Source: Rheinheimera nanhaiensis E407-8 (GTDB lineage Bacteria; Pseudomonadota; Gammaproteobacteria; Enterobacterales; Alteromonadaceae). From it: a stretch of 64,000 bases of DNA. The DNA lies in the NCBI RefSeq assembly GCF_000296695.1, contig NZ_BAFK01000004.1, positions 124,001 through 188,000 on the forward strand, given 5' to 3'. How positions within the stretch are numbered: the stretch's first letter is position 1; each line of letters begins with the position of its first letter. Below are positions 16,985 through 49,861 of the stretch, piece after piece. The translations under genes and the position numbers were made by a program. The notes below the pieces were generated by a model. That model saw only the letters and a program-made list of their open reading frames with translations. It was not told the origin of the DNA and searched no databases.

Positions 16985-17150
16985 GACACCGGTTTACCCA
17001 CGCCAACACGCCGTGAACCCTTCCCTGGGGGCGATTATGAACTTCATCCATGAAGTTCACCCCACGGGCCAGCTTCGCTGTTCAAATTCGCTCCTGACGA
17101 ATTTGTCAGCATCCTGGCCTGCAACGGTTGGCTTAGGGTAAGCCGGTGTC
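16985..17150 (-). repeat. Structured 3'-UTR repeat, copy A (long variant, 166 bp)
   Basis: Ends are inverted repeats: GACACCGGTTTACCC and GGGTAAGCCGGTGTC on the plus strand, 14 of 15 paired. Read on the minus strand, the sense of the upstream adaptor gene, it starts 17 bases after that gene's stop. An inner helix GCCAAC/GTTGGC follows. The central part is larger than in the other copies and holds several hairpins: GGCCAG/CTGGCC enclosing CAAATTCG-TCAGGAG-CGAATTTG, then GAACTTCA-TGGA-TGAAGTTC, then CCC-AGGGAA-GGG. All three of these hairpin loops contain GGA. It separates the adaptor gene from the first RND permease in the same operon. Confidence 0.8.
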
Positions 17151-17166
17151 TATCTCGATTCAGTTA

Positions 17167-18240
17167 TCAAAATTCGCGTGTGGTAACCACATTAACCAGC
17201 GCATCGTCTTTCAGCGCCGACTGGCCGGCAATCACCACTCTGTCACCCAGCGCCAAGCCTGACAGCACTTCAACCGTATTGTCGGCCTGATAGCCCAGCT
17301 GCACTGGTTTGCGGCTCACTTTCTGCTCAGTATCTATCACAAACACGGTCTGGCTGTTATCGGTACTCATTAATGCCCGTTTTGGCAGCAGTAACGCATC
17401 GGGTTTTACATCAAACTGCAGCTGCACCTGGGCAAACATACCGGGTTTTAACTGTTGGCTGTCGTTGGCCACATTCAGCACAGCACGCACTGTGCCAGAC
17501 TGTGCGTCCACTACCGGCGCTATACGCACCAAAGTGGCAGTTACCGGTGTCATACCGGCAAACTGCAGCAGAGCAGTCTGGCCAAGGCGGGCCTGTGCCA
17601 GCTGCTGCTCAGGCAGATGCACTACGGCTTCCAACTGCTGGTTTGACACCAGATGAAATAAAGATTGTACTGCGTGCTGATTAACCAGCTGGCCCACTTT
17701 GGCATAGCGGCGTGACACCACACCGTCTATTGGCGCCCGAATTTGGGTTTCTTTTACCGCAAGCTCGGCTAAGTTCACGCTGGCCAGTAAGGCATCATGT
17801 TGCCACTGCAGCTTTTCAAACACGTCGGCACTGATTAGTTTGCGCTGGTACATCTCTTCCATGCGCTTTAACTCGCTGTTCAGCCGGCTTAATTCGGCTT
17901 TTTCTTTTTGCAGGCTGTATTGCTGACGCTCGTTATCCAGCACCGCCAGCAACTGGCCGGCCACTACTTTATCGCCCTCTTCCACCAGGATTTGCTGCAC
18001 GATACCGGTGGCTTTACTGATCACTTCAGCTTCGGCACGGGCTTCTAAGGTGGCAGTGGTACGATAACTGCTGCTGATCTCACCCTGTCGGATTAATACG
18101 GCTTCTACCGGTATGGCCACCACGGCTTCAGCTTTGGTGGCGGCGGTGGAACTGTTGGCCTGGTTACAACCACTGACCAACAGACTGGCGATAATAGCAG
18201 CGGCGGCGGTCAGTTTAATGCTGTGTGAGGTTTTCATCAT
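17167..18240 (-). CDS. RND efflux periplasmic adaptor (membrane fusion) lipoprotein
   Basis: A 357-residue adaptor with a lipoprotein signal: a hydrophobic stretch and the lipobox LLVSGC near residue 25. Then come the barrel-sandwich segments around an alpha-hairpin (GIVQQILVEEGDKVVAGQLL; a Leu/Gln-rich hairpin about 105-165; IRAPIDGVVSRRYAKVGQLV) and a beta-barrel and membrane-proximal domain (LKPGMFAQVQLQF). Adaptors link RND permeases to an outer-membrane channel. It is the first gene of an operon with the two RND permeases downstream. The gene is divergent from fadL, and two inverted repeats in the shared region are candidate operators. Confidence 0.92.
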   Translation of the reverse strand: MMKTSHSIKLTAAAAIIASLLVSGCNQANSSTAATKAEAVVAIPVEAVLIRQGEISSSYRTTATLEARAEAEVISKATGIVQQILVEEGDKVVAGQLLAVLDNERQQYSLQKEKAELSRLNSELKRMEEMYQRKLISADVFEKLQWQHDALLASVNLAELAVKETQIRAPIDGVVSRRYAKVGQLVNQHAVQSLFHLVSNQQLEAVVHLPEQQLAQARLGQTALLQFAGMTPVTATLVRIAPVVDAQSGTVRAVLNVANDSQQLKPGMFAQVQLQFDVKPDALLLPKRALMSTDNSQTVFVIDTEQKVSRKPVQLGYQADNTVEVLSGLALGDRVVIAGQSALKDDALVNVVTTREF

Positions 18241-18393
18241 TCATCCTTTGGAAAACAAAAAACAGTGCAAGTTAACAGGCTTAATGCAGAGGCTATGCCA
18301 GCTGATAAAAACATTAATTCCTGAATATTTTCAACAACATAAAATATGTTAAGCATTTTCAAGCCATCCAAGCCAGGTTAAATTTGGTCAAAT

Positions 18394-18410
18394 TCACTAA
18401 TTAATAGTGA
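18394..18410. promoter_or_regulatory. Inverted repeat between the adaptor gene and fadL (possible operator 1)
   Basis: TCACTA, five bases (ATTAA), TAGTGA: a perfect 6-base inverted repeat in the AT-rich divergent region. It lies about 155 bases before the adaptor start and 110 before fadL. It could serve either gene. I do not recognise the binding protein. Confidence 0.4.
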
Positions 18411-18453
18411 TAAAACACACTAGCGCACGACAAATCCACAGCCTTTTACGCTC

Positions 18454-18469
18454 TAGAGTATGTACTCTA
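18454..18469. promoter_or_regulatory. Inverted repeat upstream of fadL (possible operator 2)
   Basis: TAGAGTA, TG, TACTCTA: a 7-base inverted repeat, 50 bases before the fadL start, close to where a promoter would be. It does not look like the FadR consensus. The regulator is unknown. Confidence 0.4.
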
Positions 18470-18519
18470 AGGTATGACCTCTTTATACTGGCGGCTTTTA
18501 CATTCAACAGGGTATGTAT

Positions 18520-19971
18520 ATGTTTAGAAAAACCGCCGTGTCTTTAGCTATTATCGCCAGCCTTGCCAGTGTGTCGGCGCACGCTGAAGGCTATAAACTC
18601 TTCGAGCAATCGGTTAGCAGTATGGGCAATGCCTACGCCGGCCGTGGCGCCCAAATTACCGATGCCAGCCTGGTGCACTCTAACCCGGCGGCATTAACCC
18701 AATTAGACGGTGCCCAGCTGTCGGCCGGTTTAAACCTGATCAGCGCCAAAACCAATTACCGTAATGCCAGTGCACAAAGTGCTAATGGCCAGTCTGTTAT
18801 TGGTCGTACAGAAGGCGCAAATAGTTTGAATGAGCTGGTACCTTTTGTGTTTTACACCGACAAAGTGTCTGAGCAGCTAAGTTGGGGCATCGGTTTTTAT
18901 GTACCTTTTGGTTTGTCGTCAGACTATGACGATGATTTTGTCGGCCGTTATTTTGCCGATGAAACGGCAGTGCAGGTGCTAAGCCTGCAACCGACACTGG
19001 CGTATAAGCTAAATGACAGCTGGTCAGTGGGTCTGGGTATTTCGTTAAACCGCGCTGAGGGCACCTTATCCAAATTTAAAGATCACAGTGGTTTATGTGA
19101 AGCTGGCCCCATGTTAGGCGCGATTTTTAATGACGCCATCTGCCAAAGCCACTATGAGGTAGAAGGCGATGATCTTGCCTTGGGTTATACCCTGGGTATT
19201 CATGGCGAGCCGATTGCAGGCACCCGCTTAGCCTTTACCTGGCACTCGGCGGTCAATTACACCTTAACAGGCGACTCAGTTATTACTAATACGCCGGTGA
19301 CCAGCGCTAATGGTCTGCCTTACCTGGTACCGGTACCGGGCATGCCGCAGTTACCGCTGCTCGATACCCGCACCGGTAAACTGGCCAGTAATGATATGCT
19401 GATTGAAAAAAGCCAGCTGGATTTAACCACGCCAGCCACTGCCGCTTTTAGCCTGGATCAACAGCTGACTGAAGCCTTGTCGCTGCAGTTTAGCGCGGCC
19501 TGGACACAGTGGAGCAAGTTTGCAAGCATTGATATTGTCAGCAATGATGCCAACCCCAGCATTTCACTGAGTACCCAGCTCGGGCCAAACCTGAATAGTG
19601 AAGGCTATATTGGCTATATTCCTGAGTACTGGCATAACAGCTGGTCAGTCGCGCTGGGTGCTACCTATGTTTATCAGCCGGATCTGACGCTGAAAACCGG
19701 TATTGCCTATGATGAAAACCCCATTAGCCAAAGCCATAAAACCGCGCGTATTCCCACCGATGACCGGGTGTGGTTAACCGTGGGTGCCACCTGGCAGTTC
19801 AGCGAGCAGCTCAGCCTGGATTTTGCCTATGGCTACCTGTTTACCGGCGATGTCAGCGTAGATGAGCGGGAATACAATGTGCAGGACGAACCGTTGTACA
19901 ACAGTGGTTTTCAGGGCCAGTACAGCAATAAAGGCCAGTTGTTAGCGGTACAAGCCAACTATCGTTTTTAA
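18520..19971 (+). CDS. fadL: FadL/OmpP1 long-chain fatty acid outer-membrane transporter
   Basis: A 483-residue outer-membrane beta-barrel of the FadL family. A signal peptide (residues 1 to about 22, ending SAHA) is followed by the conserved N-terminal hatch EGYKLFEQSVSSMGNAYAGR and SNPAALTQLDGAQL, which pass through the barrel. The C-terminus ends QANYRF, with the terminal Phe needed for barrel insertion. FadL proteins let long-chain fatty acids and other hydrophobic compounds cross the outer membrane. I prefer the ATG at 18520 to that at 18514 because ACAGGG lies seven bases before it. Copy B of the structured repeat starts 28 bases after the stop. A fatty acid desaturase lies elsewhere in the window, but no link is shown. 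Confidence 0.9.
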   Translation: MFRKTAVSLAIIASLASVSAHAEGYKLFEQSVSSMGNAYAGRGAQITDASLVHSNPAALTQLDGAQLSAGLNLISAKTNYRNASAQSANGQSVIGRTEGANSLNELVPFVFYTDKVSEQLSWGIGFYVPFGLSSDYDDDFVGRYFADETAVQVLSLQPTLAYKLNDSWSVGLGISLNRAEGTLSKFKDHSGLCEAGPMLGAIFNDAICQSHYEVEGDDLALGYTLGIHGEPIAGTRLAFTWHSAVNYTLTGDSVITNTPVTSANGLPYLVPVPGMPQLPLLDTRTGKLASNDMLIEKSQLDLTTPATAAFSLDQQLTEALSLQFSAAWTQWSKFASIDIVSNDANPSISLSTQLGPNLNSEGYIGYIPEYWHNSWSVALGATYVYQPDLTLKTGIAYDENPISQSHKTARIPTDDRVWLTVGATWQFSEQLSLDFAYGYLFTGDVSVDEREYNVQDEPLYNSGFQGQYSNKGQLLAVQANYRF

Positions 19972-19998
19972 ATTTGGCAACGACACCGACATGTTAAG

Positions 19999-20093
19999 CA
20001 TCGGCTTACTCTAAACCAACCGTTGAAGGCATGGATGCCTGAATCGAGCCTACAGGGATGTATTAACGGCGTGTTGGTGTGAGTAAGCCGGTG
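19999..20093 (+). repeat. Structured 3'-UTR repeat, copy B (95 bp)
   Basis: Outer helix CGGCTTACTC/GAGTAAGCCG; inner helix ACCAAC/GTTGGT; hairpin AGGCA-TGGA-TGCCT; hairpin TACA-GGGA-TGTA. It starts 28 bases after the fadL stop and lies in the same orientation. The second hairpin reads CTACAGGGATGT, which differs from the CsrA in-vitro consensus RUACARGGAUGU only at the first base. It lies between converging genes. Confidence 0.85.
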
Positions 20094-20135
20094 CTTTAAC
20101 CGGCTTAAACCCGATAAACTATTACCCGCAAGCTT

Positions 20136-21446
20136 TTAATGCACCAAAGTCAGTTTATAACCTGACGGTGCTGCGTCATCCTGCTCGGCCAGCAGCATAT
20201 AACGCTGCCCTGGTGTTAGTTGCAGGCTGTCGGTTTTATCCAGCAAAGTAGTGCTGCCATTTTCTGCCACGTGTACCAGCGCAATAGCGTAGTAATTTTT
20301 CGGCAGGTTAATGCTCTGCTGCTTTTTAAATGCCAGATTCTTCACGCTGTAGCGGGCATCAGCAATAGTTTCGTTTTCCCGCACAAAGTAAAACTGCAGT
20401 TTGTCAAAATCGCTGGCCAGGTTGGCCACAATCACATCATGCGCCTGCACTTGTGGAGCGGCCGGCTCGTTAATGGCTAAGGCTTCTACCTGCTGCTCGG
20501 CATCGGCATACAGCAGTACCGCCTTACTGTCACCGGCACTGATGCTGAGCAGCGCACTGTTTAGCAGCAGCTGATTGTCGCCATCACGTACTGACAAACT
20601 AAAATCGCCTTTGTTAAGCGGTAAATAGTCGCTAAGCTCACCGGCGGGTAACGCCGCAACCGCGTTGTTGTCCAGCGCCACGCTCACCTGCTCTGTCAGG
20701 CTATTGTATAAACGAAACTGCGCCGGTGCATCGGCATGGTTGTAAGCGGTAACACTGGATGAGTGCAACACCAAATCCAGCGACAACTGCCCTGCTACCG
20801 GGCCATGTTTGTCACGTACAATCAGTACATAGTGGCTGGCATAGGCAAAATTGACACTGCGGGCGACAAACAGCGGTGTGGTGCTGCCACTGCTGGTCAG
20901 ATACAGATTAAACTTACCAATGTCTTTCGCCTCAGCCAACGAGCTGATTTCATGCAGCGCCAGGCTGTCCAGCAACTGCGCATCGGCAAAGCCTTTGTTT
21001 TCCGGGCTTAGGTAAACATCCAGTGCAGTTTGCTCGTCAGATAAATTCACCAGATGCAGCTTAAACTGCTTATCCAGGGTTTCTTCGCGCTTAAAGCTCA
21101 GGCTTAAATAATCGTACTGCTGCCCCTGCTCGGTCAGGATCAGCAGGGTTTTGTCGCCTTCTGCCAACGGCAATGTTTCTGTTAACAGCTCATCGGCCGA
21201 GCTGACATCGGTTAATGTCAACTCGTAGCTGTTTACATCAAGCGACTGCACACTGGTGGCATCGCCAAAGGTGGCACTGCCCACAGCAATATCGCCGGCT
21301 TTGAGCGAGGTGTTACCACTGCCGGCAGCCCCGTTGTAAAACTGCAAATAGGCTTGCGCGCTGCTGTCATCACTGCTGCTGCCACCACATGCTGTTAATA
21401 CCGCTACGGCACAGGCCAGCAGCGCCATGTTAAACCCTGATTTCAT
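20136..21446 (-). CDS. DUF4397-like lipoprotein
   Basis: A 436-residue lipoprotein: signal peptide with lipobox VLTACG (Cys at about 20), then a Gly/Ser/Asp linker, then repeated beta-rich units of about 100 residues with patterns such as YLQFYNGAAGS, FRLYNSLTEQVSVAL and VIVANLASDFDKLQFYFVRE. The repeats recall DUF4397 domains, which are small immunoglobulin-like modules on cell-surface lipoproteins; their function is not known. It converges on the FadL gene, with repeat copy B in between. Nothing in the sequence shows a ligand. Confidence 0.75.
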   Translation of the reverse strand: MKSGFNMALLACAVAVLTACGGSSSDDSSAQAYLQFYNGAAGSGNTSLKAGDIAVGSATFGDATSVQSLDVNSYELTLTDVSSADELLTETLPLAEGDKTLLILTEQGQQYDYLSLSFKREETLDKQFKLHLVNLSDEQTALDVYLSPENKGFADAQLLDSLALHEISSLAEAKDIGKFNLYLTSSGSTTPLFVARSVNFAYASHYVLIVRDKHGPVAGQLSLDLVLHSSSVTAYNHADAPAQFRLYNSLTEQVSVALDNNAVAALPAGELSDYLPLNKGDFSLSVRDGDNQLLLNSALLSISAGDSKAVLLYADAEQQVEALAINEPAAPQVQAHDVIVANLASDFDKLQFYFVRENETIADARYSVKNLAFKKQQSINLPKNYYAIALVHVAENGSTTLLDKTDSLQLTPGQRYMLLAEQDDAAPSGYKLTLVH

Positions 21447-21681
21447 TAAATGCTTCCTAAAGCTGGTTAATCCGCCGCTCAGGGTAAGGCAGGCACGCCA
21501 GACTGGCTACGGCAAATAACCAATACAAACAGTTGGTTACCCTTAGTTACAAACACCATAGCTTTTATACAACTGTGTGCTTGGCCAAAATGCGTTATTT
21601 AGCCGGGCGCCATACAGACTGATTCAGTTAAGCCAAGGATTCTGCTACACTCTGCGCGCCTAATTTAACGCCTCAGAAGAC

Positions 21682-22794
21682 ATGACTATGACTCTTGCAA
21701 CTCAGGTTCTGGCGGTCAACGACGACTTGCCTATTCGCACCCATTTGCCGGTCCACTCCGGTAAGGTGCGCAGCGTGTACTGGTTAACCAGCGAAGACAG
21801 CGCCCGGCTGATCCGGCAGAAAAACTACCCGGTTGCCGCCGATACGCCGCTGGCCATCATGGTAATAAGTGATCGCATTTCTGCCTTTGATTGCATCTGG
21901 CATGGTGAAAACGGCTTAAATGGCGTACCGGGCAAAGGCGCGGCGTTAAATGCCATTTCTAACCACTGGTTTTCACTGTTTAAACAGCACGGCCTGGCCG
22001 ACAGCCATATTTTAGATATTCCGCACCCGCTGGTGTGGATAGTACAAAAAGCCCGGCCGGTAAAAATTGAAGCGATTGCCCGTCAGTATATTACCGGCTC
22101 AATGTGGCGCGCCTACAGCAAAGGCGAGCGCGAGTTTTGCGGCATCACCTTGCCTGAAGGGCTTAAAAAAGATCAAAAGCTACCGGATATTTTAATCACC
22201 CCTTCCACCAAAGGCATTTTAACCGGCCTGGACGGTGTACCCGAGGCTGATGATGTTAATATTTCCCGCGCCGATATTGAGCGCCACAGTGCTGCCTTTG
22301 GTTTTGAACAAGCATCTGACATCGACTTATACGAAACGCTGTTAAAGCAAGGCTTTGGCGTAATTAGCGATGCCCTGGCTAAACTGGACCAGATCTTTGT
22401 TGATACCAAATTTGAGTTTGGTTACGTAAAAGATGCCACTGGCCAAAGCAAATTGATTTATATGGATGAAGTGGGCACGCCTGACAGCTCCCGCATTTGG
22501 GATGGTGCAAGCTGGCGCAGTGGCAAGATTGTCGAGCAGTCAAAAGAAGGTTTCAGGCAGTGGCTGCTAACTAACTTCCCTGAGCCAGATATTCTGCTAA
22601 ATAAAGACCGTATGCCAGAGCGTGCCGCCCTGGCGCGCGACAATGCGCTGCCAACTGAAGTGATGATGGATATCTCACGCACCTATTTAGGCATTGCCGA
22701 AAAAGTGATTGGGAAAAAGATTGAATTGTCGGCCAACCCGAAAGCCGAGATTATTGCCGTGCTCGATAAAGAGTACGGTTTAATTAACCGCTGA
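21682..22794 (+). CDS. purC: Phosphoribosylaminoimidazole-succinocarboxamide synthase (SAICAR synthase)
   Basis: A 370-residue SAICAR synthetase. The enzyme joins aspartate to CAIR using ATP in purine synthesis, in the cytoplasm. Clear motifs are the ATP-binding start [11 protein letters not shown], the second conserved block [20 protein letters not shown], and the [10 protein letters not shown] loop. It is the long form, about 370 residues, found in gammaproteobacteria and not the 237-residue E. coli form. The start at 21682 has a second in-frame ATG two codons on; I cannot choose firmly. Repeat copy C starts about 12 bases after the stop. Confidence 0.95.
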
Positions 22795-22806
22795 TAAATT
22801 TAACGT

Positions 22807-22902
22807 GACCGGTTTGCCCTAAATCAACCGTTGGAGGCCATGGATGGCCGGAATCGAGCCTCAGGGATGATTTATGGCGTGTTGATGTGGGCAAACCGCG
22901 TC
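22807..22902 (+). repeat. Structured 3'-UTR repeat, copy C (96 bp)
   Basis: Outer helix CGGTTTGCCC/GGGCAAACCG; inner helix ATCAAC/GTTGAT; hairpin GGCCA-TGGA-TGGCC; hairpin TCA-GGGA-TGA. It begins 12 bases after the purC stop, in the same orientation. Against copy B, changes in each stem are matched on the other strand. Confidence 0.85.
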
Positions 22903-22919
22903 ATGTTGTGACTCCGTTG

Positions 22920-23333
22920 TTACAACGTTTTAGTCATAAAGTATTTCGCTCCGCCGGCAAAGGGGTAATCCTGCTGTACCCACTGCACCTGATAACCATG
23001 ACGCTGATAAAAAGGTTTAGCCTGAAACTCCAGCGTATCTAACAGCACAAACTTGCACCCGCGCCTTTTGGCTATTTGCTCAGCCTCATTAAGCATGGCA
23101 CTGCCTAAGCCTTTGCCGCGCTCAAGATCGGCCAGCCAAAACGACTCTAAATAAAACCAGTTACCAAAGGTACGCCCGGCCAGCATAGCAATCAGCTCAC
23201 CGCGGCTATTTAGCTTTTTTAAGCCCAGTCCCTGCCGTTTGCTGGCATCCCAGTGTTTGGCATTAAACTCTGCAATTTTCTGTTTGGCCTGCTCAGCAAA
23301 GTGACTACTGTTATCAGCAATAAAATCTGTCAT
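22920..23333 (-). CDS. GNAT family acetyltransferase
   Basis: A 137-residue single-domain GNAT. The acetyl-CoA pyrophosphate loop reads LERGKGLGSAMLNEAEQIAKRR (R-G-K-G-L-G), preceded by a beta strand with SFWLADL and followed by the FYQRHGYQV strand common in this fold. The acceptor substrate cannot be read from the sequence; related proteins often acetylate small molecules or peptides. It is a single gene, converging on purC with repeat copy C between. The next gene on its strand upstream is separated by a terminator. Confidence 0.85.
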   Translation of the reverse strand: MTDFIADNSSHFAEQAKQKIAEFNAKHWDASKRQGLGLKKLNSRGELIAMLAGRTFGNWFYLESFWLADLERGKGLGSAMLNEAEQIAKRRGCKFVLLDTLEFQAKPFYQRHGYQVQWVQQDYPFAGGAKYFMTKTL

Positions 23334-23415
23334 CTAAACCCACCCTTTATTAGCTGGTGCGCCAGTGTAATCAGCTGTTAGCTCACAGCACAAGCGCCTG
23401 ATGGACTAACAGCAC

Positions 23416-23444
23416 AAAAAACAAAGGCCGCCAAGGCGACCTTT
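23416..23444 (-). terminator. Rho-independent terminator of the sigma/anti-sigma/DUF4097 operon
   Basis: On the minus strand AAAGGTCGCC, loop TT, GGCGGCCTTT, then G and a run of six T. The stem has one bulge or mismatch. It lies 25 bases after the stop of the DUF4097 gene. Confidence 0.8.
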
Positions 23445-23468
23445 ATCGTTATGCATCCGCGCAGGGTT

Positions 23469-24458
23469 TTATAGCTTTTCCAGCTTAATATCACCACTTA
23501 CTGTGGTTAGCTCAACACTGCCATCGCCACTGCCCAGGGTAAATTGCAGGCTACGGGAGGGGCCGTATTTAGCCTTGCTGGCTTTATCGCTACTGAGCTT
23601 ATTATCAATACTGCCGCCGGCCGACGCTTTAAGCTCAAAACGGGCGCTGATGCTGCTATCCAGTTTCAGCTCAATGTCACCACTAACGCTGCTGCCACTG
23701 ATGCGTGGTGCAGCACTGTCGCGCAGCGCCGCGTCAATCTCGCCGTTTACCGTACTTAGCTTCAGCTGTGTGGTACCGCTTAGTTTAAGGTCGGCATCAC
23801 CGTTTACCGTGCTAACGCTTACCTCTTCAGCGCTGCTGCTGGCTTTAATCTCGCCGTTGACCACTTCATAACTTATCCGACCGCGGGAGTCGGTATCTTC
23901 AATTTCGCCGTTTACTGAGCTGAGTTCTATGCGGCCACTGGCGCCACTGAGTTTAATTTCGCCATTAACGCTGCTTAATTGAACGCTGTTACGCAAATCG
24001 GTGGCGGTAATTTCACCATTTACCGTGCCAATTTGGCTACTGCCGTGAATACCGCTAACGCTGACATTACCATTAACGCCTTTAAACTCAACACTGGAGC
24101 CCACCGGCACCTCAAAGCTGAGCTGGGCGGCATTGCCTTTGTCATTCCAGCGGTAGTTAACCTGGCGTGGCATGGTCATTTCAAAGCGGGTAAAACCATC
24201 TTTGCTGTCAAACTCATAGCCGGTGGCTTTTTCATCCAGTTTGCCAGTTACACTAAAGGTATTAGTATCAACAGCTTTAATGGTTATCTCACCACTCATC
24301 ACCTCAAGGTAAATTTTTTCATTGGCTGATACGCTAACGCGCTCGTTTACCACGGTGCGCGGATCGGCAAGCGCCAGCTGACTTACGCCAAGCAGCATGA
24401 CGCCAAACAGGCCACTGCCCCATACGTTACGTACTGATAGATTATTTGCAATTTGCAT
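23469..24458 (-). CDS. DUF4097 family beta-helix protein (exported)
   Basis: A 329-residue protein: signal peptide (about 1-31, ending ALA), then many copies of a short strand repeat, mostly S-V-N-G-E-I/D (SSVNGEIKLSG, VNGEIKAS, TVNGEIDAA), the hallmark of DUF4097 proteins thought to form a right-handed beta fold. Function is unknown; members often sit with ECF sigma factors or in stress-responsive operons. Here it is the third gene of such an operon, ten bases after the anti-sigma gene. It is probably periplasmic or on the envelope. A terminator follows at 23416-23444. Confidence 0.82.
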   Translation of the reverse strand: MQIANNLSVRNVWGSGLFGVMLLGVSQLALADPRTVVNERVSVSANEKIYLEVMSGEITIKAVDTNTFSVTGKLDEKATGYEFDSKDGFTRFEMTMPRQVNYRWNDKGNAAQLSFEVPVGSSVEFKGVNGNVSVSGIHGSSQIGTVNGEITATDLRNSVQLSSVNGEIKLSGASGRIELSSVNGEIEDTDSRGRISYEVVNGEIKASSSAEEVSVSTVNGDADLKLSGTTQLKLSTVNGEIDAALRDSAAPRISGSSVSGDIELKLDSSISARFELKASAGGSIDNKLSSDKASKAKYGPSRSLQFTLGSGDGSVELTTVSGDIKLEKL

Positions 24459-24467
24459 AGCCTTCTC

Positions 24468-24947
24468 CTAACTAAGCGTTATAGGTTGTTGCAGCGTGGC
24501 TTGCTGAATATAGCTAAGCTGCTGTTGATACAAATGTTGCAGCTTCGCGAGTAGCTGCGGTTCATCCGGATAAAATTGCAGGGCCTGGCGTACCTGAGCG
24601 ATGGCCTGATCCCAAATCTGTAATTGCTGCTGCCAGTTGTCAAAGCCTTCAGCCACTGCCACCACCTGGCTTAGCTGCTGCGCTTTTTGTTGCTCATACA
24701 CCTGCAGCAACATCAGCTCAGCATTGGGCATGGCAGCGCTACGCTCGTTTGCTGGCGGCAGCAGCACCAGCTGCCAGCTGATTAAACCAACCAGTAACAG
24801 CGCTGCGGCGCTGGCCCAATAAGCGAGCGCCAGCTTAGCCTTTTGCTGCTGTGGCAAGCGGCTGACAATGTCTGGCCATAAGTCGCGCTCTGGCGCGATA
24901 CTGTTAGTTAAGCCGCGGATAGCGTTATCTAATTGCTGTTCATTCAT
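24468..24947 (-). CDS. Probable anti-sigma factor, single-span membrane protein
   Basis: A 159-residue protein with one hydrophobic segment at about residues 40-63, a cytoplasmic-looking N-terminal part that has no obvious zinc-finger anti-sigma motif (no HxxxCxxC), and a Gln/Leu-rich periplasmic part with heptad-like pattern. It overlaps the sigma factor gene by eight bases and is followed ten bases later by DUF4097, so it is most likely the partner that holds the sigma factor. This is inference from arrangement and topology; no recognisable family domain is visible. Confidence 0.65.
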   Translation of the reverse strand: MNEQQLDNAIRGLTNSIAPERDLWPDIVSRLPQQQKAKLALAYWASAAALLLVGLISWQLVLLPPANERSAAMPNAELMLLQVYEQQKAQQLSQVVAVAEGFDNWQQQLQIWDQAIAQVRQALQFYPDEPQLLAKLQHLYQQQLSYIQQATLQQPITLS

Positions 24948-25461: not shown

Positions 25462-25554
25462 AACTGCCCTTACTGGCCGGTGTTTTGCGTTATTGTAGGG
25501 TTAGTCGTAAGGCTGCTGCCAAGGGTTTAAATAAAGATAATTTTTTTGCGCAAG

Positions 25555-25576
25555 AAAAGCGGGAGCCAGGCTCCCG
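25555..25576 (-). terminator. Hairpin with T-rich tail
   Basis: CGGGAGC, loop CAG, GCTCCCG, followed on the minus strand by CTTTTCTTG. A fair rho-independent terminator for a minus-strand transcript from the region 25577-25850, upstream of the sigma factor gene. Confidence 0.5.
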
Positions 25577-25696
25577 TCACTAAAGTGGTGAAATAATCCA
25601 GGAAGGAAGGTGTAACAGGCGCCAGTATCTTTGCTTTTCGTGGCAGTTGTATGACAATAAAGGCATTAACGCCAAAAATATCCAGCGATTGCACAG

Positions 25697-25720
25697 AAAA
25701 AAGCCGGACACTAGTCCGGC
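25697..25720 (-). terminator. Strong rho-independent terminator
   Basis: Minus strand: GCCGGAC, loop TAGT, GTCCGGC, then six T. It is about 35 bases beyond the last codon of the small frame at 25756-25848. Confidence 0.8.
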
Positions 25721-42617: not shown

Positions 42618-42759
42618 AGTTATTCCTTTAATGCACAGCCGCATGCTCAGAGGCAGCATAACGGCACTAATACAATCTGCTTATGCAGGTACAGACAGCT
42701 AAAGCTGAATCGCGCAGCAAACATAACTGCCGGTAACTAAACCAGTGTTTATCAGTGCA

Positions 42760-43080
42760 TTAAGAAAGTGGTGGTGCGCGGGGTTGCTGTGGCCTGACCA
42801 CAACAGAACAGGTACCGAACAGCTGAGCGCCACCCGCCAGGTAGCACGGGCGATATGACGGCAGCGTAGTTGCGCTTTTGGGCAGCGCCGGTGGCGTGTC
42901 ATCGTTATCTGTGTGGCTATTTTCGCCGGGAATGTGGGCTAGTTGCTGATGGCTGAGGTTAAGGGCATACAGCTGGCTGTCGGCAAGCGGCGATAAGCGA
43001 ACATCTTGCACGGCAAAGGCTTGCGGTGTGCAAAGTATTGCTAAGTAAAATAATATCGCGACGCGACTAATCCAGCGCAT
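42760..43080 (-). CDS. Small exported protein of unknown function
   Basis: A 106-residue protein with a signal peptide (residues 1-22, ending AFA) and a mature part with no recognised domain. It includes a Pro-rich C-terminus (VVVRPQQPRAPPLS) and three Cys residues, two of which could form a disulfide. The gene lies 143 bases upstream of secD on the same strand and may be cotranscribed. The ribosome site is weak (GGTGA further from the ATG than usual). I regard it as a likely but not certain gene; no family recognised. Confidence 0.5.
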   Translation of the reverse strand: MRWISRVAILFYLAILCTPQAFAVQDVRLSPLADSQLYALNLSHQQLAHIPGENSHTDNDDTPPALPKSATTLPSYRPCYLAGGAQLFGTCSVVVRPQQPRAPPLS

Positions 43081-43154
43081 AGCTGTTTATCACCCAAATT
43101 CACTATCGGTAGTGGCTGCGCTAACTAAGGCACAGCTATCAGCATAATGGGCCT

Positions 43155-43181
43155 TTAGCGGCCTTTGCACAAGGCCGCTAA
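43155..43181. other. Strong intergenic hairpin without a U-tract
   Basis: TTAGCGGCCTT, loop TGCAC, AAGGCCGCTAA: an 11-pair stem. The nearby A-run would be U before the hairpin on the minus strand, so it does not fit a rho-independent terminator for the minus-strand gene. It may shield the 3' end of the TerB-like transcript from decay. Confidence 0.5.
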
Positions 43182-43210
43182 GAAAAAATACTGCTACAGC
43201 GTAAGAAAAT

Positions 43211-43891
43211 TTAAGCCGTGGCCTGACGGGCTTGCTGCTCCAGCTCAGCTTTTAACGCCGGATCCAGCTTTAATTGCCGCGCCAGCTCAGTTAAGTAACT
43301 ACGCTCCATAAAATTCTCTTCATCTACCACCAGTACACTGGCCAGATACATTTCAGCGGCCATTTCCGGTGTGCTGGCGCTTGTGGCAATATCAGCCGGA
43401 TCCAGCGGTTTTCGAAGCTCTGCATCAAACCACTGCTGCAAGCTGCCATCGCTGGTCAAACGGGCAATTTCGTTATCGATAAGCTCGCGTTCTCTGTCAT
43501 CAATATGGCCATCGGCTTTAGCGGCAGCAATAATTGCACGCAAAATAGCATGACTATGCTGCTCAGCCTGTGGCGCCGGTAAGCGGTCGATAGTTTGTGG
43601 TTCACCCCTTGCTGCTGCGCTTTGTTGCTGCTGGTAGTTGCTATAGGCTTTATAGGCCACCACGCCAAGCGCAGCTAAACCGCCATAGGTTAATATTTTG
43701 CCGCCCATTTTGCGGCCTTTTTTACTGCCCAGCAGCAGCCCCAGCGCACCACCGCCCAAAGCTGCTCCGGCTTTGCCCGACAACAAACCACCGAAACCAC
43801 TGCTGCCAGAGGCTGATGTTTTGCTGTTAGCTGATAGTAATTCAGAGCCCTGCTTAAATAACTGATCTAATAATCCTTTGGTATTCATCAA
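43211..43891 (-). CDS. TerB-like (DUF533, YebE-type) inner membrane-associated protein
   Basis: A 226-residue protein of the DUF533/YebE family. The N-terminal third is Gly/Ala/Lys-rich with a hydrophobic stretch (ALGGGALGLLLG), then a short linker, and the C-terminal half (about 105-220) is a TerB-like helical domain: AIIAAAKADGHIDDRERELI and YLTELARQLKLDPALKAELE. The acidic DGHIDDRE segment is typical of TerB, where it binds metal. E. coli YebE is induced by envelope stress, but the function is unknown. A long spacer separates it from the divergent tricorn-like protease gene. Confidence 0.82.
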   Translation of the reverse strand: MMNTKGLLDQLFKQGSELLSANSKTSASGSSGFGGLLSGKAGAALGGGALGLLLGSKKGRKMGGKILTYGGLAALGVVAYKAYSNYQQQQSAAARGEPQTIDRLPAPQAEQHSHAILRAIIAAAKADGHIDDRERELIDNEIARLTSDGSLQQWFDAELRKPLDPADIATSASTPEMAAEMYLASVLVVDEENFMERSYLTELARQLKLDPALKAELEQQARQATA

Positions 43892-44042
43892 TCTGTCTCA
43901 TCTTTCCTAAGTTGTTTGTCTGACCATAGCGGTAGCAAATAATTCCGGCCAGACATTAACTGTTACAAGCTGATGTTTTGCCATCAGCACGCACTGTGCT
44001 TTACTTGTTGTCTATTCAGAACCAGAACAACAAGGAATGCTT

Positions 44043-47000
44043 ATGTTTAAACCACGTTACCTCGCGCTGTTTTGTGCGCTGACCAGCGGCTTTACCTTTG
44101 CCAGCGACGGCACTCGCCTGCTGCGCCAGCCGGATATCTCGGCTGCTCATCTTACTTTTGTTTATGGTGGCGATATCTGGCTGAGTGATAAAACCGGCCA
44201 GAACCCACGCCAGCTGACCAGCCATCCGGCCAGTGAATTTGCACCTAAGTTTTCGCCCGATGGCAACTGGATAGCCTTCTCTGCCAGTTACGATAACAAC
44301 ACTGACGTGTACATTATGCCTGTTAGCGGCGGCACGCCAACGCGACTGACTTATCACCCGGGGGTGGACACCGTAAATGGCTGGAGCCCGGATGGTAAAA
44401 GAGTGCTGTTTGCCTCGAACCGCGAAATTGCCAATAGCCGCAGTAATCAGCTGTACCAAATCAGTATTGACAGCGGTTACCCGGAAAAACTGATGCAGGC
44501 CGTTGCCTTTGAAGGCGACTTACACCCCGATGGCAAAAAACTGGCCTACCGGCCGAATAATATGGCTTACAGCGGCGCCAGTGGCTGGCGGTTGCATCGC
44601 GGTGGCAGCACGCCGCCGGTGTGGATCATCGATCTGGAAAAACAGCAGCTGGAAAAAATCCCCCACCCTAATGCCAATGAATTTAATCCGTTCTGGCTTA
44701 ATGACACCGTGTACTTTTTATCTGACCGCGACAACAAGGCAGTAAACCTGTTTCGCTATCGGAACCAGCAGGTCGAGCAGCTTAGCCAAAGCCAAGACTG
44801 GGATTTACGCAGCGCGGCCGGCCACGGTAACAGCATAGTGTATGAAGCCGGCGGCTATTTATACCTGTACGATGTTGCCAGTGGCCAAACTACTCCGGTT
44901 AACGTCAATATCAACTCCACTTCAGTGCAAAAACGACCACAGTGGAAAGACGCCAGTAAAACGCTGACCAGTGCGCGGCTATCCAGCACCGGTCAGCGGC
45001 TGGTGGTATCGGCCCGCGGCGATATCTTTACCGTACCGGTGACTGATGGCAGTACCCGTAGCCTGACGCAAAGCAGCGGCGTGCGCGAATTTGACGGCCT
45101 GTGGAGCCCGGATGGCAGCAAGGTGGCGTACATTTCCGATGCCGGCAATAAACACCAGCTGGTGTTGCAAAGCCAGGATGGTTTAAGCGCGCCGCAGGTG
45201 TTTGCGCTGTCAGACAACGGTTATTTTAACCTGCTAAGCTTCTCACCCGATGGCAAACGCATCGTGTATCAGGATAACCACCTGAATTTATATGCCTTTG
45301 ATCTACAGAAAAAGCGCAGCCAAAAACTCGATAGCTCACAGCGGCGCGAAGACTTTATTGTGTCATTCTCGCCCGACAGCCGTTATCTGGCCTATACCGT
45401 GGCCGGTGCCAACTACTTTAGCCAGATCAAACTGTTCGATTTTAACAGCAACAGCAGCACACAAATTACCGATGGCTTAAGCCATGCCAGCGATCCGGCC
45501 TTCAGCCAGGATTACTTATTCTTTACTGCCTCGGTCAATACCGGGCCGTCACAAGTCGGGCTGGATTTATCTACCCGTGAGCGGCCGGTACGCAGCGCTA
45601 TCTATGCTTACGTCCTGGCCGCTGACGGCAAGTCGCCGCTGTTGCCCAAAGCCGGTGATGAACCGGTTAAAGTCGACGACAAAGCAGGCAAAAAAGATGA
45701 CAGCAAAGACAGTGCTAAAACCGAAGTTAAACCGGTCAAACTTGACCTTAACGGCCTGCAAAATCGTATTGTCGCGCTGCCGGTGGCCGAACGTAATTAC
45801 GCCAGCTTAAGTGTCGCCAGTGACGGGGCGCTGTTTTATTTAGAACGCAGCCAGCCAGGTAGCAGTAATGAGCCACCAGCGCAGCAAAGCCCGAATAATG
45901 GCACGCTTCATCGTTATGATTTTAAAGAGCAAAAAGCCGAACAAGTGGCACAGGCCATCAGCAGTTATCAGCTAAGCAACGATGGTAATAAACTGTTGCT
46001 GCTAAGCCTGCCAAATAAGCTGGAGGTCGGCGATGCCAAGGCCAAGCCCGACGCTAAAGCCGTTGACCTGGCCGACGTACGTAGCTTTGTTAACCCCAGC
46101 GAAGAGTGGCAGCAGATTTTTAACGACGCCTGGCGTATGCAAAAAGAATACTTTTATGATGCCAAGATGCACGGCATTAACTGGCAGGCCATTTATGACA
46201 AATACCAACCAATGCTTAAACATGTGCAGCGCCGCGAAGATTTAAACGAGGTGCTGGTAGAGATGATTGCCGAGCTGCAAGTCGGCCATAACCGCATTGG
46301 CGGTGGCGATATTCACCAGGAAAGCCCGAGTAAAGTGGGTTTGCTGGGCGCTGATTTTGTCATTAAAAACGGTAAGTATCAGTTTAGCACTGTCTATCAG
46401 GGCGATCGCTGGAGCCCGTTTTTAAAAGCGCCGCTAAATGTGCCCGGTGCCAGTGCCAAAGCCGGTGATTACCTGCTGGCCATTAACGGCCGCGAGCTTA
46501 ACGCCACGGACAACATTCACGCCTTGCTGGACAACACCCAGGACCGGCAAGTGGTGCTGACACTGGCCGACGATGCCAAAGGCAAAAACCGCCGCAACAT
46601 TACGGTAGAGCCGATTGCCAACGACAGTCAGCTGCGGCTATGGCACTGGGTAGAGCATAACCGTAAGTTAGTGACAGAAAAAACCGACGGCAAAGTGGCC
46701 TATGTCTATCTGCCCAATACCGCTGATGGTGGCTTTTACTTCTTTAACCGTATGTTCTTTGCCCAGGTAGATAAACCGGCACTGATTATTGATGAGCGCA
46801 AAAACGGCGGCGGCCAGGCGGCGAACTACATTACCGAAATTCTTGGCCGGCCGTTTTTATCCGGCTGGAAAGATCGTGACGGCCTGGTATTTACCACGCC
46901 GGGCGGTGGCATTTATGGCCCGAAAACCATGCTGATTGATCAGGACGCCGGCTCTGGTGGTGATTTCCTGCCCTGGGCCTTTAAACACCTGGGCCTGGGT

Positions 47001-47300
47001 AAAACTATTGGTACGCGCACCTGGGGTGGCTTAATTGGTATCTCGGCCAACCCGCCAATGATCGACGGTGGTTTTCATGTGGTGCCATTTTTCCGTTTTT
47101 ACACGCCTGATGGGCAGTGGCGGGTCGAAAACGAAGGGGTAGCGCCGGATATCGAGGTAGAACTGGATCCGATAGCGGTGAACAAAGGCATAGATGTACA
47201 GTTAGAACGTGCCATTACACACACGCTAGACGAGCTCAAGGCTAACCCGCCGAAAGATCACAGCCAGGCGCCAGCGATGCCCACTCAGCTTGGTCTCTAA
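44043..47300 (+). CDS. Tricorn-like protease (S41 family C-terminal domain)
   Basis: A 1085-residue exported protein. After a signal peptide (residues about 1-22) come two WD40/TolB-like propellers made of repeats such as FSPDGNWIAFSA, WSPDGSKVAYIS and FSPDGKRIVYQD, then a PDZ-like domain (about 730-830; GDYLLAINGRELNATDN), and a C-terminal S41 protease domain (IDERKNGGGQAANYI, LIDQDAGSGGDFLPW with the Ser nucleophile). Tricorn proteases trim peptides. This bacterial form is likely periplasmic. I prefer the ATG at 44043: AAGGA lies six bases before it. A terminator follows 15 bases after the stop. Confidence 0.9.
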   Translation: MFKPRYLALFCALTSGFTFASDGTRLLRQPDISAAHLTFVYGGDIWLSDKTGQNPRQLTSHPASEFAPKFSPDGNWIAFSASYDNNTDVYIMPVSGGTPTRLTYHPGVDTVNGWSPDGKRVLFASNREIANSRSNQLYQISIDSGYPEKLMQAVAFEGDLHPDGKKLAYRPNNMAYSGASGWRLHRGGSTPPVWIIDLEKQQLEKIPHPNANEFNPFWLNDTVYFLSDRDNKAVNLFRYRNQQVEQLSQSQDWDLRSAAGHGNSIVYEAGGYLYLYDVASGQTTPVNVNINSTSVQKRPQWKDASKTLTSARLSSTGQRLVVSARGDIFTVPVTDGSTRSLTQSSGVREFDGLWSPDGSKVAYISDAGNKHQLVLQSQDGLSAPQVFALSDNGYFNLLSFSPDGKRIVYQDNHLNLYAFDLQKKRSQKLDSSQRREDFIVSFSPDSRYLAYTVAGANYFSQIKLFDFNSNSSTQITDGLSHASDPAFSQDYLFFTASVNTGPSQVGLDLSTRERPVRSAIYAYVLAADGKSPLLPKAGDEPVKVDDKAGKKDDSKDSAKTEVKPVKLDLNGLQNRIVALPVAERNYASLSVASDGALFYLERSQPGSSNEPPAQQSPNNGTLHRYDFKEQKAEQVAQAISSYQLSNDGNKLLLLSLPNKLEVGDAKAKPDAKAVDLADVRSFVNPSEEWQQIFNDAWRMQKEYFYDAKMHGINWQAIYDKYQPMLKHVQRREDLNEVLVEMIAELQVGHNRIGGGDIHQESPSKVGLLGADFVIKNGKYQFSTVYQGDRWSPFLKAPLNVPGASAKAGDYLLAINGRELNATDNIHALLDNTQDRQVVLTLADDAKGKNRRNITVEPIANDSQLRLWHWVEHNRKLVTEKTDGKVAYVYLPNTADGGFYFFNRMFFAQVDKPALIIDERKNGGGQAANYITEILGRPFLSGWKDRDGLVFTTPGGGIYGPKTMLIDQDAGSGGDFLPWAFKHLGLGKTIGTRTWGGLIGISANPPMIDGGFHVVPFFRFYTPDGQWRVENEGVAPDIEVELDPIAVNKGIDVQLERAITHTLDELKANPPKDHSQAPAMPTQLGL

Positions 47301-47314
47301 GCCAGCCAGAACAC

Positions 47315-47343
47315 AAAAGCCGCTTAACACTAGCGGCTTTTTT
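47315..47343. terminator. Rho-independent terminator after the tricorn-like gene
   Basis: AAAAGCCGCT, loop TAACACT, AGCGGCTTTTTT. Ten pairs with T and A runs on the two sides; acts in the + direction and probably both. Confidence 0.88.
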
Positions 47344-47542
47344 ATTGCTCCCGACATAATAAAAACCACAAAAGCGTACAAGCGTTAGCTTAAAAACAAA
47401 GCAATCACTTCACCCATAAGAATTTAAAGCCATATATTTCATAATATTACTACACTCAACAGTGACTAAGCATAACTAAAACTGGCCAAACCAGATATTT
47501 TAGTGTACAACTGTGCGCTGAAATAACACTAAACGAATTATT

Positions 47543-48649
47543 GTGACGACTGTGACTGCTTCTCCCTCTCTACCACGCCGCCTGTGGCGCCATTTTTGTT
47601 TAATGCTGGGTAATCAGCCTGCACTTAGCCTCTATCTGCAACCTTTACTTCGCGCTGTTTGGCCAGGTTTTATGCCCGGCCAATTTCGTGGCCAACTGGC
47701 AGAAAAAAGCTGGCAAACGGCTGATATGGTAAAACTGACCTTACGAGTGTCACGCCGCTGGCCGGGCTTTATACCGGGCCAGCATGTGCTGCTGACGCTT
47801 GAGCATAATGGCAAAAACCTCCCCCGCCCCTTTAGCATTTGCTCGCCGCTTAGCCTGTGGCATAGCCAACGCCAGATTGAGCTGTGCTGCAAGGTACAGC
47901 ATAACGGCGCCGTTACACCGCTGTTGGCCCAGCTGACAGCGGGCAGCAGGGTAAACATCAGCGCTGCTCAGGGTGCCTTTAGCTGGCAGCAACCTGCCAG
48001 GCCGGCACTGTTTGTCGCCGCGGGCTCCGGTATTACGCCTATTGCCTCGATGCTACTTAGCCAGCGCCATTGGCTTACGCCCGTCAGCCTTTACTACAGG
48101 GTGCGCGGCAAAGAGCAGGCCGCGTTACTGGCACCGCTGCAACAACTGGCCGCGCAACAACCTTTGTTCAGCCTGCAGCTGTCCGACAGCCGGTTTGAAC
48201 ATAGCGACGCCTTTACCCGGCAAGTTTGCACGGAAGGCCAGAATAAGCAGCTGTACCTATGCGGTCCCCAAGCCTTGATGCAGCAGTTAAACGCCGCCCT
48301 AGTGCAGTCCGGTGTAGCGAAACACAACATTTTTCAGGAGCAATTTGGCCCGGCGCTGCTGGCACAAAGCACTGACAGTATCAGCGGGCAATATCAGGTG
48401 GCGCTGCAAAGCAGCACCAGCCAGCAGGTATTTAGTGCCCAAGCAAACCAAAGCCTGCTGCAAAGCGCTGAGCAACAGGGCTTAAACCCGCGTTTTGGTT
48501 GTCGTATTGGTGTGTGTTTTCAATGCGTGTGCGACAAAATCAGCGGCCAGGTGCGTGATATCCGTAGCGGTGCCTTAAGCGGCCATGGCAGCGAGCAAAT
48601 TCAGTTATGTATCAGCCAGCCGGTCACGGATCTGGTGTTAAAACAATAA
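47543..48649 (+). CDS. Ferredoxin--NAD(P)H reductase with C-terminal 2Fe-2S domain
   Basis: A 368-residue flavoprotein: an FAD-binding domain (RPFSICSP; residues 95-102), an NAD(P)H-binding domain (FVAAGSGITPIASMLL, LYLCGPQALM), and a plant-type ferredoxin domain with the 2Fe-2S ligands Cys320, Cys325, Cys328 and Cys356. It can pass electrons from NAD(P)H to an acceptor. The gene directly before the fatty acid desaturase (11 bases apart, same strand) makes desaturase the likely acceptor, as in known pairs where a reductase of this kind feeds a membrane desaturase. The start has no strong ribosome site. Confidence 0.88.
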   Translation: MTTVTASPSLPRRLWRHFCLMLGNQPALSLYLQPLLRAVWPGFMPGQFRGQLAEKSWQTADMVKLTLRVSRRWPGFIPGQHVLLTLEHNGKNLPRPFSICSPLSLWHSQRQIELCCKVQHNGAVTPLLAQLTAGSRVNISAAQGAFSWQQPARPALFVAAGSGITPIASMLLSQRHWLTPVSLYYRVRGKEQAALLAPLQQLAAQQPLFSLQLSDSRFEHSDAFTRQVCTEGQNKQLYLCGPQALMQQLNAALVQSGVAKHNIFQEQFGPALLAQSTDSISGQYQVALQSSTSQQVFSAQANQSLLQSAEQQGLNPRFGCRIGVCFQCVCDKISGQVRDIRSGALSGHGSEQIQLCISQPVTDLVLKQ

Positions 48650-48660
48650 CAGGGCAAAAG

Positions 48661-49746
48661 ATGGTATTAAGCAACGAGCAATATCAGGCGCTGGCACAAG
48701 AGCTGGACGGTTTAAAACAGCAGGTGCAGGCACAATTAGGCGAGGCCGACGCCCGTTATATCCGCCGGGTCTTGCTGGTGCAGCGCATCAGCGCCATTAG
48801 CGGTCGTATTTTACTGGTGCTGGGCTTTATCACGCCCTGGCTGTGGGGGCTGGGTGTGCTGCTGTTGGCACTGGGCAAAATTCTCGACAATATGGAAATT
48901 GGCCACAATGTGCTGCATGGCCAGTACGACTGGATGAACGATCCCCTTTTACACTCACGCCGCTATGAGTGGGATATTGCCTGCGAAGCCGGCTCCTGGC
49001 AGCGCACCCATAATGTCGAGCATCACAGCTATACCAATATCATAGGCTTGGATCGCGACTTTGGTTATGGCTTACTGCGCCTGAGCAACGATTTTCGCTG
49101 GCGGCTGCGTAATTTATGGCAAAGCGGCACTTACCTGCTATTGAGCATGTTGTTTCAGTGGGGCGTGTCGTACCACGAGCTGGCCGGCCAGCGGGTGTTT
49201 TTCGGTAAAAAAAAGGCTAACCGCCAAACGCAGGTGTCTGACAGCGAGCTAAAAAAAGCCTTTTTCGGCAAGGGCGTGCGGCAACTGGTGAAAGACTATC
49301 TGTTTTTCCCCTTAATCGCCGGGCCCATGTGGCTGTGGGTGCTGTGCGGTAATTTACTGGCCAATTTAATCCGCAATGTGTGGACATCAACGGTGATCTT
49401 TTGCGGCCACTTTACCAAACAAGTGTATGCCTTTAAGCCGGAAGACTGTGAAAACGAAAGCCGCGGCCACTGGTATTACCGTCAGATGTTGGGCTCGTCT
49501 AATTTTACCGGCCCCACCTGGCTGCATATTTTAACCGGCCATTTAAGCTGCCAGATAGAGCACCACCTGTTTCCGGATATCCCTGCCCGGCACTACCCGA
49601 ATATGGCAAAACAGGTGCAGGCGATAGCGGCGAAATACGGCACCCCGTATAACACCGGCAGCTTTTTGCGCCAGTACAGTACCGTGTTTTGGCGCATTAT
49701 GCGCTATTCACTACCCGGTGGTAAAAGTGCGGTAAAAGCCTTGTAG
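48661..49746 (+). CDS. Membrane fatty acid desaturase (acyl-CoA/acyl-lipid type)
   Basis: A 361-residue membrane enzyme with the three histidine boxes of fatty acid desaturases: HNVLH (His82), HNVEHHSYTN (His117, His121, His122), and QIEHHLFPD (His301, His302). They bind the di-iron centre that inserts a double bond into a fatty acyl chain. Two or three hydrophobic regions lie between the boxes. The ATG at 48661 has AGGG just before it; the in-frame start at 48607 would overlap the reductase gene. Together with the 2Fe-2S reductase it is a complete desaturation unit. Repeat copy D follows. Confidence 0.92.
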   Translation: MVLSNEQYQALAQELDGLKQQVQAQLGEADARYIRRVLLVQRISAISGRILLVLGFITPWLWGLGVLLLALGKILDNMEIGHNVLHGQYDWMNDPLLHSRRYEWDIACEAGSWQRTHNVEHHSYTNIIGLDRDFGYGLLRLSNDFRWRLRNLWQSGTYLLLSMLFQWGVSYHELAGQRVFFGKKKANRQTQVSDSELKKAFFGKGVRQLVKDYLFFPLIAGPMWLWVLCGNLLANLIRNVWTSTVIFCGHFTKQVYAFKPEDCENESRGHWYYRQMLGSSNFTGPTWLHILTGHLSCQIEHHLFPDIPARHYPNMAKQVQAIAAKYGTPYNTGSFLRQYSTVFWRIMRYSLPGGKSAVKAL

Positions 49747-49762
49747 AAAAATCATCGTAGCG

Positions 49763-49861
49763 AGAAACGGTTTACCCTAAGCAGACCGTTGAAAGCATGG
49801 ATGCTTGAGACGAGCCTACATGGATGTATTTACGGCGTGTCTGTGTGGGTGAACCGTTTCG
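49763..49861 (+). repeat. Structured 3'-UTR repeat, copy D (about 99 bp)
   Basis: Outer helix CGGTTTACCC/GGGTGAACCG (one G-U pair); inner helix GCAGAC/GTCTGT (one G-U pair); hairpin AAGCA-TGGA-TGCTT; hairpin TACA-TGGA-TGTA. It starts about 17 bases after the desaturase stop, in the same orientation. Both hairpin loops present GGA. It lies between converging genes. Confidence 0.85.

Follow-up and report, generated by a model that had tools for sequence, protein, structure and literature searches.

A dispersed REP-like repeat of Rheinheimera and other Gammaproteobacteria with a covarying fold and two GGA hairpin loops resembling CsrA/RsmA sites

Repetitive extragenic palindromic (REP)-like repeats are usually seen as hairpins of a generic kind or as clutter in the DNA; antagonists of CsrA, in turn, are commonly pictured as a handful of dedicated small RNAs. 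The repeat described here has features of both. Four copies, elements A to D, lie at gene 3' ends in a window of 64,000 nucleotides, which is the whole stretch of DNA analysed (Rheinheimera nanhaiensis E407-8, contig NZ_BAFK01000004.1, positions 124,001 to 188,000 of the forward strand). They belong to a real, large, and seemingly unnamed family of intergenic repeats found in many Gammaproteobacteria, the copies of which share a covarying fold and two GGA hairpin loops that resemble CsrA/RsmA sites.

Among the systems to which the family can be compared, CsrB and CsrC as well as RsmX, RsmY, and RsmZ bind CsrA through repeated GGA hairpin loops, with sites in pairs (PMC7652899). The present elements share these repeated loops and paired sites, but those RNAs are dedicated small RNA genes with many sites, whereas each copy here offers two candidate sites (up to four in the long form) and dozens of copies are scattered beside gene ends, unlike a dedicated sponge gene. 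REP sequences and bacterial interspersed mosaic elements (BIMEs) are dispersed, lie mostly outside gaps between divergent genes, occur as dimers, and have G-T pairs in their stems (PMC3733652). The present repeats are likewise mostly intergenic, lie in unidirectional or convergent gaps, and form dimers; they differ in being about 99-166 nt long, in having a conserved junction with two arms, and in conserving loops rather than stems, and they lack the short palindrome (20-40 bp) and the unpaired GTAG or CGTC end tag of REPs, their end columns forming a variable helix. ERIC and RU-1, RU-2, and RU-3, miniature inverted-repeat transposable element-like intergenic repeats of 103-168 bp (PMC2759123), are similar in kind when compared by description; in the collection of E. 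coli genomes, blastn with element B finds nothing. The TwoAYGGAY motif (RF01731) has been predicted to bind CsrA (PMC4333381) and its range includes Gammaproteobacteria (PMC2864571). It too has two hairpins with AYGGAY-like loops, while the mark of the present family is a three-way junction with a TTYAC bulge; a pyrimidine precedes the GGA (strict AYGGAY) in 60 of 107 aligned copies in hairpin 1 and 33 of 107 in hairpin 2, and thus in part of the copies. The RF01731 model (cut-off 43 bits) matches none of the 32 elements of the own genome, and a cmscan of B lists no match to it up to E 10. Scans of Rfam 15 by gathering score and by E-value yield no relevant family for the elements, and the open-access literature searched holds no description of such a repeat. 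Genome annotation gains a large structured-RNA family lacking a match in Rfam 15.

The original prediction, made from the letters of the window, had placed four elements with a common fold shortly after the stop codons of four genes. A covariance model (CM) built from eight copies of the own genome (R1, with B and D but not A or C among its founders) recovers all four (Table 1). A and C nonetheless reach low E-values from outside the founder set, and R1 gives no additional match in the window up to E = 5. The elements begin 17, 26, 11, and 17 nt (A to D) after the stop codons of the genes for an HlyD-type resistance-nodulation-division (RND) adaptor, FadL, SAICAR synthetase, and a fatty-acid desaturase, as had been proposed, and the quoted stems and the match of B to the CsrA consensus read correctly from the sequence. 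By fold energy each element beats all 200 of its dinucleotide shuffles (z -6.6, -6.2, -4.6, and -7.5 for A to D). A consensus scan of 16800-23100 finds 8 promoter-like sites against 5.9 in shuffles (sd 2.5), which is about the shuffled rate.

Table 1. Coordinates of the elements, of the GGA loops of element B, and of a second repeat family (positions in the window unless a locus is named; SELEX, systematic evolution of ligands by exponential enrichment)
Feature	Position	Strand	Genes or context	Score or basis
Element A, long form	16984..17149	-	between RND adaptor (17167-18240, -) and RND pump gene (-)	CM R1 67.7 bits, E 4e-14
Element B, short form	19998..20096	+	fadL (+) / convergent DUF4397 gene (20136-21446, -)	CM R1 116.2 bits, E 7e-26
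Element C, short form	22806..22905	+	purC (+) / convergent GNAT gene (22920-23333, -)	CM R1 77.3 bits, E 2e-16
Element D, short form	49764..49862	+	fatty-acid desaturase gene (+) / convergent CBS-domain gene (49872-50303, -)	CM R1 110.9 bits, E 1e-24
Element B, hairpin 1 loop ATGGAT	20031..20036	+	CANGGANG context	sequence and column conservation
Element B, hairpin 2 loop AGGGAT	20054..20059	+	CANGGANG context; CUACAGGGAUGU = 11/12 of SELEX consensus	sequence and column conservation
Second family, L114-L120 (own-genome contigs C55, C38, C51, C51, C41, C36, C46)	~1501-1630 of each locus

Searching the own genome (3.99 Mb) with the covariance model, the check that had been suggested, finds 32 copies at E up to 1 (5e-5 for the weakest), and further copies appear in relatives. 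Among 41 relatives, copy numbers are 10 to 60 in Rheinheimera, where 25 of 25 genomes (own genome included) bear the element, and 4 to 65 in the 5 bearers among 16 genomes from other families of the order. In a sample of the Gammaproteobacteria, 69 of 369 genomes match at E <=0.01, equal to 62 of 272 genera, and a family with the loop letters of CsrA/RsmA sites in so many sampled genera links REP-like repeats to CsrA antagonists. A phylum sample searched with a later model (R3) gives matches in 22 of 299 genomes, all 22 inside the class, the share of out-of-class genomes among the 299 not being shown; as the class and phylum searches scored 11-13 candidates per genome, copy numbers there are lower bounds. 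The strict pattern occurs, among the matches listed, in Rheinheimera, Alishewanella, Alteromonas, Marinobacter, Microbulbifer, Cellvibrio, Methylococcaceae, Stenotrophomonas, Xanthomonas, Arenimonas, one Yersinia, and others. Carriage as phage or plasmid cargo was rejected: viral contigs contain two stretches with the core pattern (L240:11498-11524 and L241:6228-6254, one near a contig end), and blastn with B finds no match in plasmids or phages. Four contigs of draft genomes (L365, L370, L372, L373) end at or within 35 bases of an element, as expected at multi-copy repeats.

The fold consists of an outer helix (P1), an inner helix (P2), and a three-way junction formed by an arm P3 with a GGA loop, one A, an arm P4 with a GGA loop, and a 3' bulge TTYAC followed by GT. 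P1 has 14 modelled pairs, beyond which it continues for a median of 4 and at most 19 pairs. Compensatory double changes are seen in 21 of 30 predicted pairs among 20 own-genome copies, and for a wider comparison an alignment (A4) was drawn from 100 selected loci of 241, giving 114 rows and 107 distinct copies from several families; several near-duplicates and one weak match, L103, were left out, among others. On the 107 copies the first model pairs 93.9% of cells against 59.9% in shuffles, and the refined three-way junction 94.2% against 58.9%, with double changes in 34 of 35 pairs and a covariation score of 0.870 against 0.200 in shuffles and 0.09-0.11 when the fold is slid along the alignment. 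Four of five measures lie above all 500 shuffles, while the fifth, further pair types, does not (120 vs 122.0). The claim that the stems covary is thereby borne out in the larger alignment.

A scan of all column pairs recovers the outer and inner helices, and its 60 best pairs include five that are absent from the aligning model and lengthen P3: 28-59 (C-G 86, U-A 21, no exception), 29-58, 32-54, 33-53, and 34-52. These were picked on the alignment that was then used for scoring, so that their counts are partly selected. At the base of P4, pairs 61-84, 62-83, and 63-82, proposed by reading, fall below the 60 best, with scores of 0.41, 0.24, and nothing for the near-invariant third and with double changes in 5, 2, and 0 sequences. 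The interior is best described as a three-way junction, though the minimum-energy folds of B and D pair otherwise; the common fold originally proposed for all four elements stands with this correction and with A recognised as a long form. Element A has extra GGA hairpins inserted, including GAACTTCATGGATGAAGTTC (long-form alignment A6), and among 13 long forms (5 in genome G000, 8 in G024) one inserted hairpin has a GGA loop in all 13 and another in 12 of 13; some of the changes in the inserted stems are compensatory. Three other descriptions were set aside: the inner pairing CGTTG/CGGCG of R1 (columns 28-33 with 81-86) does not covary while the P3 pairs do; a captured terminator stem as the outer helix was rejected by reading, copies within a genome sharing a consensus with compensatory changes; and likeness to integron attC sites was likewise rejected by reading, the letters of the inner helix being freely variable.

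Both loops hold GGA in all 107 distinct aligned copies, in CANGGANG context, a count to be read knowing that the model, which favours GGA, was the sole source of 73 of the 100 loci and that the other 27 came from a pattern requiring the GGA of loop 2. Hairpin 1 reads C(105)A(87)-N-GGA-N-G(105) and hairpin 2 C(100)A(107)-N-GGA-N-G(100), with N variable, and the two GGA are 19-21 nt apart in 107 of 107. PMC6849547 gives A/UCANGGANGU/A as the RsmE consensus, which the family context CA-N-GGA-N-G equals, and PMC7652899 gives RUACARGGAUGU, in hexaloops on short stems, as the consensus selected with CsrA. The same source describes one CsrA dimer bridging sites 10-63 nt apart, a range that includes the spacing seen here. 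By covariation and loop letters, each GGA lies in a hairpin loop within CANGGANG and is a putative CsrA/RsmA site. The mismatches left in the stems show which strand folds: G-U exceeds A-C by 81 to 19 in the outer helix and by 12 to 1 in the inner, which points to the GGA strand folding as a single strand, be it RNA or DNA.

Gene context was taken from the author's own codon-model gene caller, which replaced an earlier context of greedily chosen longest open reading frames. In G000 and G024, both of the genus, 92 of 92 copies are intergenic, comprising 35 co-directional sense, 19 co-directional antisense, 34 convergent, and 4 divergent copies, and 88 of the 92 face a gene 3' end, at a median distance of 27 nt. 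Gaps with an element (51 co-directional, 34 convergent, 4 divergent; n=89) differ from element-free control gaps of at least 40 nt at the same loci (80, 12, and 40; n=132), with p below 1e-6 for both contrasts. The preference for the sense strand in Rheinheimera is slight (p 0.04). For other lineages, whose loci were picked by exact pattern among the matches listed, 155 of 174 matches were kept (19 partial, edge-cut, or weakest ones being dropped), with 152 copies intergenic and 3 inside genes, an unbiased orientation of 34 sense to 38 antisense, and 37 close neighbour pairs that are mostly inverted (-+ 24, +- 8, ++ 4, -- 1). Four elements each, alternating in orientation with starts about 150-260 bases apart as in BIMEs, are seen at L197 and L171 (Xanthomonas) and at L217. 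The elements hence belong to gene 3' ends, with a strand preference that is slight in the genus and absent elsewhere. Placement relative to genes is far from random, whereas relative to strands it is unbiased outside the genus. What stands of the original prediction is a family that is duplicated or mobile, has covarying stems, and carries two GGA hairpins of the CsrA type, but the description as sense 3'-untranslated-region elements does not hold as worded: B, C, and D lie in convergent gaps, where a sense position is automatic, so that within the window only A is informative on this point.

Copies come and go at gene ends, with terminators in their place at some. At the fadL 3' end an element is present in 2 of 24 genus genomes, sense in G000 and inverted at the same offset in G021, and 9 of the other 22 with a match have, by reading, a GGCGATC terminator instead. 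The two loci (L330:2985-3083 vs L329:2985-3083) show an inversion in place, such as recombination between the arms of the outer helix would yield. At purC, with a match in eight genomes, G015 has a decayed long form and G021, by reading, a terminator. Together with the inverted pairs, this inversion in place and the replacement of terminators look REP-like. Among co-directional gene ends, terminator-like hairpins are found at 6 of the 51 that have an element and at 23 of the 66 that have none (p 0.005), whereas convergent gaps show no difference in rate (17 of 66 vs 3 of 10). A T-run follows just 2 of 92 copies, and the elements are therefore not intrinsic terminators. Tandem arrays occur on contig C1 of G019, with six copies at 1123345-1124034 (about 118-base spacing) and four at 452572-453522 (216 or 426 bases).

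As the best explanation of the whole, and one that has the balance of probability narrowly on its side, we infer that this REP-like dispersed chromosomal repeat encodes a CsrA-docking RNA with effects at 3' ends and as a sponge. One strand would encode a compact RNA with a long, variable P1, P2, the three-way junction, and arms P3 and P4 each with a CANGGANG hexaloop. Copies would be transcribed, usually when transcription reads on beyond a stop codon or runs from one gene of an operon into the next, and the two loops would dock one CsrA/RsmA dimer, one on each RNA-binding face. In each copy the closed outer helix and the bound CsrA may form and protect the mRNA 3' region where an intrinsic terminator has been lost, while dozens of copies together would soak up free CsrA. 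Docking of transcribed copies, as predicted from the loop letters, is slightly on the probable side, and a physiological role as a sponge or in mRNA decay, which the original prediction also named, is conceivable. The family offers an inexpensive and direct way to test whether a global regulator is buffered by sites dispersed over mRNAs. A bolder version is rather unlikely: in it the class-wide family evolved as a scattered CsrA sponge with copies as preformed docks for CsrA dimers at mRNA 3' ends, so that overall transcription would set the level of free CsrA and the copy number of the repeat would tune the Csr system, or, conversely, the repeat is kept because CsrA protects or assists the repeat's own RNA or a single-stranded intermediate of it.

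The distribution also suits a mobile repeat of the REP/BIME type acting at the DNA level, in which a transposase-like enzyme would recognise a strand-specific hairpin of single-stranded DNA by its GGA loops and junction, and the likeness to CsrA sites would be a coincidence. Intergenic placement, depletion between divergent genes, unbiased orientation outside the genus, mostly inverted neighbour pairs, the tandem arrays of G019, and the inversion in place at fadL all speak for it, as does the G-U excess of the outer helix, which is alike in both orientations and can be read at the DNA level, G-T pairs holding in single-stranded DNA too. The same placement, between unidirectional or convergent genes, and the formation of dimers are known from REPs (PMC3733652). 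Yet the invariant loop letters equal the CsrA/RsmE consensus, and do so in two arms, in the hairpins that the long form adds, and again in a second repeat family; the copies are far longer than 20-40 bp and have no fixed GTAG or CGTC end tag, and no transposase is among the 25 of 122 Pfam families listed for 60 neighbour genes, a partial view. The original prediction had itself named a REP-like element with no RNA role as its alternative, and the REP-like half of this fits the distribution, while the lack of an RNA role is disfavoured by the G-U/A-C asymmetry of the outer stem and the invariance of GGA; the DNA-level account as a whole is possible but doubtful. It is improbable that the elements are structural 3' ends for which CsrA is unneeded, with the long helix replacing an intrinsic terminator and blocking 3'-to-5' exonucleases after Rho-dependent termination. 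The scarcity of terminator-like hairpins at co-directional ends with an element and the terminators found instead at fadL and purC would fit, but such an account leaves the invariant GGA loops, their fixed spacing, and the conserved bulge unexplained, and it sits poorly with the equal terminator rates in convergent gaps, the near absence of T-runs, and the 23 of 92 copies that are antisense or divergent. Chance or compositional similarity has a negligible probability, given the window E-values of 4e-14 to 7e-26, 32 copies in the genome, and a covariation score above all 500 shuffles.

The own genome has one clear csrA gene (Pfam E 8e-26), between the alanyl-tRNA synthetase and tRNA-Ser genes, which encodes a protein of 66 aa with L4 and R44. 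By hand tally, csrA is found in 64 of the 69 element-bearing genomes of the class, and among high-quality genomes in 56 of 57 with the element against 224 of 257 without (p 0.01, uncorrected for phylogeny and genome size).

Several observations weigh against the CsrA-docking explanation, the strongest of which concern genomes that have elements and apparently no csrA. G236 (98% complete, 270 contigs) has none above cut-off even in a permissive search, while the four of its copies that were read retain both GGA loops, and in the less complete csrA-negative genomes G109, G382, and G048, with ten copies, hairpin 2 has GGA in 10 of 10 and hairpin 1 in all 8 in view; this tells against a role for CsrA unless the gene lies in assembly gaps. 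The G-U to A-C ratio of the outer helix is similar in copies sense and antisense to the upstream gene (29:9 and 9:3 in Rheinheimera, 15:1 and 10:1 in others, from crude gene calls) and so does not track transcription of the host gene, and with orientation unbiased outside Rheinheimera many copies would go untranscribed in the GGA sense. In the arms the excess is unclear, at 19:13 in P3 (11 of the A-C at one pair) and 1:0 in P4, which makes docking very slightly less probable. L103 (E 0.09), outside the alignment, has GGC in loop 2, and the conserved bulge TTYAC and GAGCC are unaccounted for by CsrA. The consensus fold lies 4.8 (B) and 7.0 (D) kcal/mol above the predicted minimum, and the mean pair probabilities are 0.36 (hairpin 1) and 0.11 (hairpin 2) over the 53 Rheinheimera rows; over the 61 other rows they are 0.94 and 0.34. 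In Rheinheimera the consensus hairpins are backed by covariation, not by energies, which there still prefer the inner pairing of R1, and a two-state switch between the P3/P4 fold and the alternative inner pairing is possible.

The second family came to light below the cut-off of 43 bits for RF01731, which hits seven places of the own genome at 22.6-33 bits, distinct from the present elements, and also scores, under the cut-off, in 1 of 14 control genomes. When aligned, the seven sequences yield a structure of their own that has a long outer helix with covariation and a pair of GGA hairpins; 21 of its 40 pairs are doubly changed. Four of the seven lie just downstream of a gene in its sense, by a crude gene call.

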